A stretch of DNA of 64,000 nucleotides from NCBI RefSeq assembly GCF_000209655.1, contig NC_015458.1:1550001-1614000 (forward strand), read 5' to 3'. Shown in pieces: positions 41,712-43,361 of this stretch. The stretch comes from Pusillimonas sp. T7-7 (GTDB lineage Bacteria > Pseudomonadota > Gammaproteobacteria > Burkholderiales > Burkholderiaceae_B). The translations under genes and the position numbers were made by a program. Below the pieces are notes generated by a model. That model was not told the DNA's origin, searched no databases, and saw nothing but the letters and a program-made list of their open reading frames with translations. The stretch's first letter is position 1, and every line of letters starts with the position of its first letter.

Positions 41712-42101
41712 TTATTCTGCTGCGACCTTCTTGGCCGATTTGCGCACCAGTTTTTCTTTAATACGAGCGGCTTTACCCGAGCGGCTACGCAGATAGTAAA
41801 GTTTAGCACGACGGACATCACCGCGGCGCTTGACTTCAATGCTGGCGATTTGCGGGGAATAAAGCTGGAATGTACGCTCGACCGCTTCGCCCGAGGAAAT
41901 TTTGCGGACGATGAAAGACGAGTTAAGACCACGGTTGCGACGGCCGATGACTACGCCTTCGTAGGCCTGCACACGCTTACGGGCGCCTTCAACCACGTTT
42001 ACATTGACAATGACTGTGTCGCCAGGGCCAAATTCAGGTTTGGCTTCGCCGCCGGTCAGGCGAGCGATTTCTTCTTGTTCAAGAAGTTCGATCAGGTTCA
42101 C
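41712..42101 (-). CDS. rplS: 50S ribosomal protein L19
   Basis: L19 lies at the 30S-50S interface. The 129-aa product has the family core [38 protein letters not shown] and [17 protein letters not shown] place the start at GTG 42101 ([11 protein letters not shown]), because GGAG lies eight bases before it and L19 proteins begin there; an ATG at 42122 would add seven residues. Unlike the usual rpsP-rimM-trmD-rplS order, the gene stands alone here with its own promoter region. Confidence 0.95.
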
Positions 42102-42206
42102 GTTGAACACTCCAGGTTTCATCTTGATGCGGGCGAGGACATTATTCTAGGGCTGTAATACCAGAACTTATTGCGCCCGTCAGAGGATGAGTTAGCAAAG
42201 CCGATT

Positions 42207-42212
42207 ATTGTA
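42207..42212 (-). promoter_or_regulatory. Possible -10 element of rplS
   Basis: TACAAT (minus strand) preceded by TG lies about 105 bp before the rplS start, directly behind the upstream small gene; the -35 at 17 bp (TTTTAA) is poor. Some promoter is needed here because no other ribosomal operon genes precede rplS. Confidence 0.35.
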
Positions 42213-42229
42213 CAAGCAATTGATCTTTT

Positions 42230-42406
42230 TTAAAAGCCACCCATTGCGCCCAGCCACATCAGGCCCGGAATGGTCGCACCCCATACCGCCACTAGGCAGA
42301 CATCGGCCACCATAGACCCGCGGGTAAGACTGGCGGATTTTTTCTGGACCGGACGTGCAGGAAAAGGCCATTTAGAAGGTGCATTCTTGGGCTGGTAAGT
42401 TTTCAT
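42230..42406 (-). CDS. Putative SOS-controlled small membrane protein (58 aa)
   Basis: I do not recognise the family. The protein begins MKTYQPKNAPSKWPFPARPV, then QKKSASLTRG, a basic proline-rich N-terminal half, and finishes with one hydrophobic segment (about 32-56: MVADVCLVAVWGATIPGLMW) ending in GAMGGF. This suggests a bitopic inner-membrane protein with a short, positively charged cytoplasmic head. GAGA six bases before the ATG is a plausible ribosome-binding site. Two exact LexA operators lie 79-128 bp upstream over its likely promoter and no other gene is placed to use them. Known SOS-induced small membrane proteins include TisB of E. coli and SidA of Caulobacter; no sequence similarity to either is evident. 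Function is unknown. Confidence 0.72.
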   Translation of the reverse strand: MKTYQPKNAPSKWPFPARPVQKKSASLTRGSMVADVCLVAVWGATIPGLMWLGAMGGF

Positions 42407-42448
42407 TTTTGTCTCGCAAAAAAAGCGGTTAACCTAGGCTTTGTAAGA

Positions 42449-42463
42449 CTGCCCTCAGGGCAG
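42449..42463 (-). promoter_or_regulatory. Hairpin in the leader of the small membrane gene
   Basis: CTGCCCT-C-AGGGCAG is a 7-bp perfect palindrome around one base (about 5 bp plus a 5-base loop in RNA). It lies in the predicted 5' leader, 43 nt before the ATG. No T-run follows, so a terminator is unlikely. Confidence 0.45.
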
Positions 42464-42484
42464 CGTGCCGCGGACCACAAAATA

Positions 42485-42500
42485 CTGTTCAAAAAAACAG
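42485..42500 (-). promoter_or_regulatory. LexA (SOS) box 1
   Basis: CTGT-TCAAAAAA-ACAG, an exact match to the CTGT-N8-ACAG LexA operator of beta/gamma-proteobacteria, with the favoured TA on its left side. It lies about 10-25 bp downstream of the predicted transcription start. Confidence 0.8.
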
Positions 42501-42516
42501 TTAATCCATAGATTTA

Positions 42517-42545
42517 ACTGTACAAAACAACAGTATTTTTTGCAA
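42517..42545 (-). promoter_or_regulatory. LexA (SOS) box 2 over the promoter of the small membrane gene
   Basis: CTGT-ACAAAACA-ACAG (42518-42533) is a second exact LexA operator, 33 bp (about three helical turns) from the first. On the minus strand it covers the -10 candidate TACAGT (42517-42522), which has TTGCAA (42540-42545) as a -35 17 bp away. LexA bound here would block RNA polymerase. Confidence 0.75.
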
Positions 42546-42643
42546 GTATTTATTTTTGTTTGCGACCGCTTTTATGTCTGCTCTACACAACACCCTTCTG
42601 CCGCAAGCCCTGAAACCCGTCTAATTGATCCTCGGCACTCCAC

Positions 42644-42676
42644 AAAAAAAGAGCCTCTTCAAGAGGCTCTTTTTTT
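42644..42676. terminator. Bidirectional intrinsic terminator behind the peroxiredoxin gene
   Basis: GAGCCTC-TTCAA-GAGGCTC with seven A before and seven T after; it works as a terminator on either strand and lies 44 nt after the peroxiredoxin stop codon. It also isolates the LexA-controlled promoter from peroxiredoxin transcription. Confidence 0.92.
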
Positions 42677-42719
42677 GACCGGACAGGCCCGGGAATGGCG
42701 GCCTGCACCAGACAAGGCG

Positions 42720-43361
42720 TTATTTATTGGGCTGGGGTGTTACACGCAGGTAGGGACGTACTTCCGTGTAGCCCTTGGGGAATTTTTCCTTCAGAACCGC
42801 TTCATCTTTCAGGGAGGGCACAATAATGACGTCGTCGCCGTCTTCCCAATTGACCGGTGTGGCCACGCTGTGGCTGTCAGTCAGTTGCAGAGAATCAAGC
42901 ACCCGAAGGATTTCATTGAAATTTCGGCCTGTGCTGGCAGGATAAGTCAGCGTCAGACGCACTTTCTTGGCCGGGTCGATAATGAAAACCGAACGCACGG
43001 TGGCTGTTGTGCTGGCATTGGGGTGAATCATGTCGTACAACGTCGAAACCTTGCGATCTTCGTCAGCCAGAATGGGAAACTCCACCTTGGTGTTCTGGGT
43101 ATCGTTAATGTCTTCGATCCACTTGTTGTGCGACTCGGCGTCGTCTACCGATACAGCGATCACTTTGGCATTACGCTTGGCAAATTCGCCCGACACAATC
43201 GCCGTGTAACCCAGCTCGGTGGTGCATACTGGTGTGAAATCGGCAGGGTGCGAAAACAGAACACCCCAGCTATCACCCAGGTACTCATGGAATTTGATCT
43301 TGCCTACAGAGGAATCTTGTTCGAAATCGGGGGCGGTATCGCCCAAACGCAGTGTGGTCAT
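42720..43361 (-). CDS. 1-Cys peroxiredoxin (Prx6 type)
   Basis: Thiol peroxidase for hydrogen peroxide and organic peroxides. The 213-aa protein has the peroxidatic cysteine in HPADFTPVCTTELG, the Prx6-type LYDMIHPNAS and RSVFIIDPAKKVRL blocks, and a long C-terminal domain (VATPVNWEDGDDVIIVPSL) of the Prx6 group; no resolving cysteine is seen. It starts behind AAAGAGAG and has its own terminator, so it is a single-gene unit. The name could be given as prx6 or lsfA; I leave it open. Confidence 0.93.
   Translation of the reverse strand: MTTLRLGDTAPDFEQDSSVGKIKFHEYLGDSWGVLFSHPADFTPVCTTELGYTAIVSGEFAKRNAKVIAVSVDDAESHNKWIEDINDTQNTKVEFPILADEDRKVSTLYDMIHPNASTTATVRSVFIIDPAKKVRLTLTYPASTGRNFNEILRVLDSLQLTDSHSVATPVNWEDGDDVIIVPSLKDEAVLKEKFPKGYTEVRPYLRVTPQPNK

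Follow-up and report, generated by a model that had tools for sequence, protein, structure and literature searches.

The stretch of DNA analysed here, called the window throughout, comprises 64,000 nucleotides of the Pusillimonas sp. T7-7 genome. On its minus strand an open reading frame of 58 codons (42230-42406, ATG to TAA, product 58 aa) is found, and the order along that strand is a peroxiredoxin gene, a hairpin, a promoter carrying two exact CTGT-N8-ACAG sites, the ORF and rplS. The ORF listing and a pattern scan confirmed the description given in a first-pass annotation, which had placed a 58-codon gene behind two perfect sites of this type, 33 bp apart (start to start, both on the minus strand), with the ribosomal-protein gene and the peroxiredoxin gene as its neighbors. 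From upstream to downstream, the features are as follows.

42720..43361, minus strand: peroxiredoxin gene, the upstream neighbor, present in 31/84 homologous loci
42644..42676, no strand assigned: terminator-like hairpin 3' of the peroxiredoxin gene, which would insulate the SOS promoter (fold of 42636-42682)
42540..42545, minus strand: TTGCAA, a -35-like hexamer retained across nine related promoters
42518..42533, minus strand: distal LexA box CTGTTGTTTTGTACAG, overlapping the -10-like hexamer (pattern scan, promoter alignment)
42517..42522, minus strand: -10-like hexamer TACAGT, inside the distal box and 17 nt after TTGCAA (promoter alignment)
42485..42500, minus strand: proximal LexA box CTGTTTTTTTGAACAG, in the predicted early transcribed region (pattern scan, promoter alignment)
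42411..42417, minus strand: likely ribosome-binding site GCGAGAC (GAGA core conserved in the promoter alignment; position from sequence)
42230..42406, minus strand: ORF of 58 codons for a predicted SOS-controlled membrane microprotein (ORF listing, homologs, dN/dS)
42359..42370, minus strand: WPFP motif of the putative cytoplasmic head, codons 13-16 (WPF in 58/82 homologs)
42233..42304, minus strand: conserved, predicted C-terminal transmembrane stretch, codons 35-58, with D35, P47, W51, G53 and G57 invariant (homolog alignment, composition, model)
41712..42122, minus strand: rplS (ribosomal protein L19), the downstream neighbor, on the same strand in 80/84 homologous loci

The count for the peroxiredoxin gene is to be read with the fact that many of the other loci are too short or carry a radical-SAM gene in its place. 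As to the insulating terminator proposed by the first-pass annotation, folding supported the hairpin (-24 kcal/mol, z -4.85); a terminator scan of the window did not list it. On the other side of the ORF, upstream of rplS, a conserved leader element lies around CATCCTCTG (42175-42200, minus strand). In 63/80 loci an exact ATCCTCTG lies no more than 160 nt ahead of rplS, at a median position of -81; the element gave no Rfam match at gathering score and is possibly an L19 leader.

The promoter has the architecture previously predicted for it, with the distal box covering the -10-like hexamer and the proximal box downstream. Alignment of nine related promoters showed that the conserved stretches are TTGCAA, both boxes and part of the ribosome-binding site. 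Each hexamer matches at four of six positions, and the promoter was not listed in a consensus promoter scan; the longer, E. coli-like 20-nt LexA consensus has no match in the window. Four exact CTGT-N8-ACAG sites are present in the window, a number reached by 0/100 shuffled sequences (mean 0.66). Across the 3.92-Mb genome, 46 exact sites were found versus 30 for the reversed control pattern, indicating that single exact sites often arise by chance and that conservation of the boxes in related promoters has to decide. The pair at this gene is the sole pair closer than 50 bp in the genome-wide listing of exact sites. Among 399 genomes of the order, close pairs occurred in 21 genomes, compared with 10 for the reversed pattern, so that a box pair by itself is a modest signal. 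These two control comparisons are the evidence in favor of the alternative that a spurious ORF lies beside accidental LexA-like sites.

In other families, some of the close box pairs stand in front of ORFs that look by eye like lexA (L158, L165, L175) and recA (L176, L177) and are not homologs of the small gene. At four loci of other Burkholderiales (L167-L170, family f7), a 70-aa ORF starting MTTLNSSFGLEYAP lies 52-54 nt after close exact pairs and is possibly another SOS gene. Hydrophobic ORFs of 137 and 146 codons lie 13 and 21 nt after close pairs at L173 and L174 (family f32), and by eye are dissimilar to the small gene.

Homologs of the 58-aa product establish that the reading frame is conserved in relatives. 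A protein search of 61 genomes found homologs in 28, all among the 37 genomes of the same family and none among the 24 others, and a C-terminal profile matched in 205/268 family genomes, representing 36/43 genera. A named genome collection yielded 70 homologous loci, under titles such as Pollutimonas, Pusillimonas, Alcaligenes, Castellaniella, Achromobacter and Bordetella. The ratio dN/dS was 0.06-0.28 in 17/18 pairs, with synonymous sites near saturation, and was lower for the C-terminal half in 10/14 pairs for which both halves could be computed. It is therefore well supported by sequence comparison that the ORF is a real gene under purifying selection. Outside the family, a profile search of 300 genomes of the order gave six matches, all of them own-family, and the C-terminal profile matched only the source genome among 369 genomes of the class. 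Viral contigs gave 15 pattern stretches and no relative, and plasmids gave no homolog. Among the genomes sampled, the gene thus appears to be specific to Alcaligenaceae.

Within the family, 63/268 genomes gave no profile match, among them some that are large and carry lexA; of the nine family genomes with no protein-search match, eight have lexA and the 0.8-Mb genome G010 lacks it. Two of the nine were recovered by other means: G033 contains a diverged homolog, recognized by its position, with an exact box, and G014 encodes a 44-aa homolog, located 13 nt after a LexA-boxed radical-SAM gene, that keeps the helix and little else. With these additions, homologs are present in 30/37 own-family genomes. 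Three further genomes (G007, locus L180; G017, L182; G025, L179) keep an exact box upstream of rplS with no convincing ORF, perhaps marking decayed or much diverged copies; G024 and G036 lack an exact box at this place. One candidate locus, L033, was dropped as a spurious weak match.

To read the promoters of relatives, loci were chosen by protein similarity and not by the presence of boxes; 98 loci were reduced to 84 by removal of duplicates, and 80 of these could be assessed, the remaining four (L074, L076, L078, L084) being cut by contig ends. At least one exact box of the gene's own was present at 48/80 loci: 38 have two exact boxes, nine have one exact and at least one one-mismatch box, and one has a single exact box. 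Three loci (L043, L045, L057) have a one-mismatch box only. At the other 29, of the Achromobacter/Bordetella type, the gene lies behind a radical-SAM gene that itself carries a LexA box, exact in 24 and with one mismatch in five; for five of these 29 loci the box was read in overlapping loci (L121, L122, L124-L126). The refuting outcome named in the first-pass annotation, boxes not conserved in relatives, was thus not observed: all 80 assessable loci have either an own box or a LexA-boxed operon (72 exact, eight one-mismatch only). Congeners account for many loci of this set, the boxes served in part as a guide in choosing start codons, and one-mismatch boxes are common by chance.

Exact pairs are spaced 18-34 bp start to start, with 16/38 at 32-33 bp and 10/38 at 25-26 bp. 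In 17,953 promoter positions 86 exact sites were found (4.79/kb) versus 22 in 386,172 positions elsewhere (0.057/kb), and all but two of the latter 22 lie in front of the radical-SAM gene. Exact sites also precede ORFs read by eye as RecA and ImuA, and the exact motif was found near lexA in the source genome and in 7/8 relatives, the exception being L109 of G004. Taken together, the sequence data make LexA control of the small gene very probable. A chance juxtaposition of spurious ORF and accidental sites is rejected by protein conservation, by purifying selection and by boxes or a LexA-boxed operon at 80/80 loci, and we consider it extremely improbable.

The Achromobacter/Bordetella homologs, which are 88-194 aa long, have no box of their own and begin 11-103 nt after the radical-SAM gene, which belongs to the NCBIfam PA0069 family and carries a LexA box close to its start. 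Loss of SOS control in this lineage, as the missing boxes might have suggested, is rejected in view of the LexA-boxed gene directly upstream; lexA of the five operon-type genomes tested also carries the usual motif. The exact box is a regular feature of this gene in the family, being present at 17/17 radical-SAM loci examined compared with 2/10 in other families. The copy in the source genome (L002, L145) has its exact box at G000:C1:105528-105543. In G016 the radical-SAM match (L134) contains one internal TAG, yet an exact LexA box precedes it. A homolog of spore photoproduct lyase, splB, is described as a predicted SOS-regulated gene in alpha- and beta-Proteobacteria (PMC3323433) and probably belongs to the same radical-SAM family. 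A literature search for PA0069 together with LexA found nothing.

This operon raises the alternative that the small protein is a repair accessory, anchoring or modulating the PA0069/splB-like radical-SAM protein. Its position directly downstream of the radical-SAM gene at 29/80 loci (gap 11-103 nt) and the exact box at every family radical-SAM locus examined are as such a partnership would have it. However, a radical-SAM match was obtained in 16 of the 28 genomes found to carry the small gene by protein search and in none of the other 12, and in the source genome the two genes lie far apart, at about 0.10 Mb (radical-SAM gene) and about 1.59 Mb (small gene). The operon is, moreover, explicable by gene loss between former neighbors: G035 shows the order boxed radical-SAM gene, three ORFs, acyl-CoA dehydrogenase, peroxiredoxin, two boxes and small gene, and loss of the intervening stretch could have created the operon seen in Achromobacter and Bordetella. 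We regard an accessory role in repair as quite unlikely. What the comparison of loci indicates is that the promoter was exchanged while LexA control persisted.

The protein was described at first pass as a basic head followed by a single C-terminal helix and as belonging to no recognized family, and both statements stand. Relative to the end of the protein, D, P, W, G and G at -24, -12, -8, -6 and -2 are invariant in 82/82 homologs, and the terminal residue is F in 79/82. The last 23 residues contain no D, E, K, R, H, N or Q in 80/82 homologs and have a mean hydropathy of 1.5-2.04. The part before them is positively charged in 81/82 (median net +7) and varies in length from a few to more than 150 residues, the short forms of the protein having 44-58 aa. 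Its WPF motif is present in 29/29 operon forms versus 29/51 of the others, being missing in 22/51. An AlphaFold2 model (45 sequences) shows one helix, residues 29-55, with a mean pLDDT of 91 for residues 31-40 and 83 for residues 41-50 (pTM 0.38) and a less certain N-terminus (mean 73). Composition and model together make a single hydrophobic helix well supported. The protein is predicted to be tail-anchored, with a basic N-terminus and one helix that reaches the C-terminus, and the positive-inside rule would place the N-terminus in the cytoplasm. Conservation along the helix has a period of 92-96 degrees, for which permutation tests on three ranges of columns gave p 0.03, 0.12 and 0.07; this weak periodicity hints at one packed face and is suggestive only. 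No credible match was found in Pfam (none for the 58-aa protein, one noise match in a second search) or NCBIfam (one noise match), no solved structure matched in a PDB profile search, PADLOC gave no match for two proteins, and the best PHROGs match for three proteins had an E value of 0.24.

TisB of E. coli is an SOS-controlled small inner-membrane protein with an amphipathic, charged helix and an antisense-controlled leader. The small gene could likewise encode an SOS-induced toxin that permeabilizes or depolarizes the inner membrane and drives dormancy, and the double operator in front of a small hydrophobic protein would be expected for a harmful product. A precedent with one transmembrane segment is DinQ, a toxic SOS-regulated peptide of E. 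coli (PMC3567139), which like TisB resembles the protein described here in being a small inner-membrane protein under SOS control (predicted, in our case). The helix of the homologs, however, is non-amphipathic (hydrophobic moment median 0.10, maximum 0.20), uncharged and highly conserved, and the W, P and G that it keeps almost without exception speak for a specific partner. In several species (L010, L020, L059, L066, L071, L077) only 9-16 nt separate the proximal box from the start codon, leaving little room for an antisense-controlled leader of the TisB type. No antisense RNA was found at the locus: no Rfam family reached the gathering score and the promoter scan gave no plus-strand promoter-like site within 42000-42800, results that are both compatible with an antisense RNA all the same. 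A sub-threshold match to mir-2943 (22.5 bits against a cut-off of 76, E 0.066) is read as noise from the box repeats. A toxin of the TisB or DinQ kind is, on this evidence, rather unlikely, and between this and a SidA-like protein, the two models weighed at first pass, the anatomy leans to the latter.

SidA has 29 aa, and Caulobacter belongs to a different lineage with a different LexA motif. The shortest forms found here are, like SidA, little more than a helix; in contrast to SidA, the helix is preceded by a basic, presumably cytoplasmic head whose length varies. In Caulobacter crescentus, DNA damage induces the small transmembrane proteins SidA and DidA, the former through LexA cleavage, and their targets are FtsW/FtsI/FtsN (PMC4211646). 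YneA, SosA and ChiZ of Gram-positive bacteria share with the small protein a single transmembrane segment and SOS induction (predicted here from the boxes), but they have an extracellular part after the helix (a LysM domain in YneA and ChiZ), whereas the protein described here ends with its helix and varies in its N-terminal part. The transmembrane segment of YneA binds TM7 of FtsW (PMC13396833), and SosA is reset through its C-terminus by CtpA (PMC6851548). SulA of E. coli, which binds FtsZ (PMC13396833), offers a possible functional parallel in SOS-induced division arrest; unlike SulA, the small protein has no Pfam match, and PF03846 itself gave no match in the one genome tested, that of Pusillimonas sp. 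T7-7, with a positive E. coli control. Lineage-specific predicted SOS genes without assigned function are represented in beta-Proteobacteria by the predicted LexA-regulated genes hypA and hypB, which by their descriptions are confined to species with multiple chromosomes and to Burkholderia, respectively (PMC3323433); the small gene differs from both in being found only in Alcaligenaceae among the genomes sampled.

These comparisons led us to propose that the locus is a LexA-repressed SOS gene for a SidA-like membrane inhibitor of division, an explanation to which, taken whole, we assign a probability of about 0.5. In the undamaged cell, LexA on the distal box would block the promoter at its -10 element and LexA on the proximal box would block early transcription; upon DNA damage LexA would be cleaved and the gene expressed. 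The product would sit in the inner membrane by a single transmembrane helix ending at the C-terminus, with the basic N-terminus facing the cytoplasm. This helix may pack against a component of the septal cell-wall machinery, FtsW or its partners being the most plausible, such that septum synthesis would be paused during repair, as by SidA in Caulobacter. Two operators in front of a gene for hardly anything but a helix, and the invariant W, P and G of that helix, argue for a specific partner in the membrane, and the nearly invariant C-terminal Gly-Phe could be a handle for removal by a periplasmic protease. Two features of the SOS inhibitor class are present, a LexA-type promoter, by sequence, and a small size with a single transmembrane segment; searches of Pfam, NCBIfam and PDB gave no credible match to known inhibitor families, in a class that is not one sequence family. 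Repression by LexA and induction by DNA damage are thus suggested by sequence, and inhibition of division by analogy.

A narrower version is advanced more tentatively, as possible: a minimal tail-anchored protein that needs no more than its transmembrane helix to block the septal cell-wall synthase and has Gly-Phe as its removal signal, LexA control having outlasted the replacement of the promoter as the gene came to stand second in a LexA-controlled radical-SAM operon in the Achromobacter/Bordetella lineage. The protein might instead modulate another membrane complex, in transport, respiration or envelope stress, with no direct effect on division, given that a membrane helix and SOS control are all that is established and that no solved structure matches the profile. 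The small SOS membrane proteins of published function cited here, however, mostly act on division (PMC13396833); we judge such a role unlikely.

Literature searches found nothing treating the small gene and no account of how Alcaligenaceae halt division during DNA damage. This family includes Bordetella and Achromobacter, and the microprotein, LexA-boxed and with a helix that hardly varies, is a candidate for the factor that halts their division. That a double-operator promoter gave way to a LexA-boxed operon constitutes a natural experiment and suggests that selection has acted on SOS control itself. If the proposal is true, the small gene would represent a hitherto undescribed SOS checkpoint of the Alcaligenaceae.
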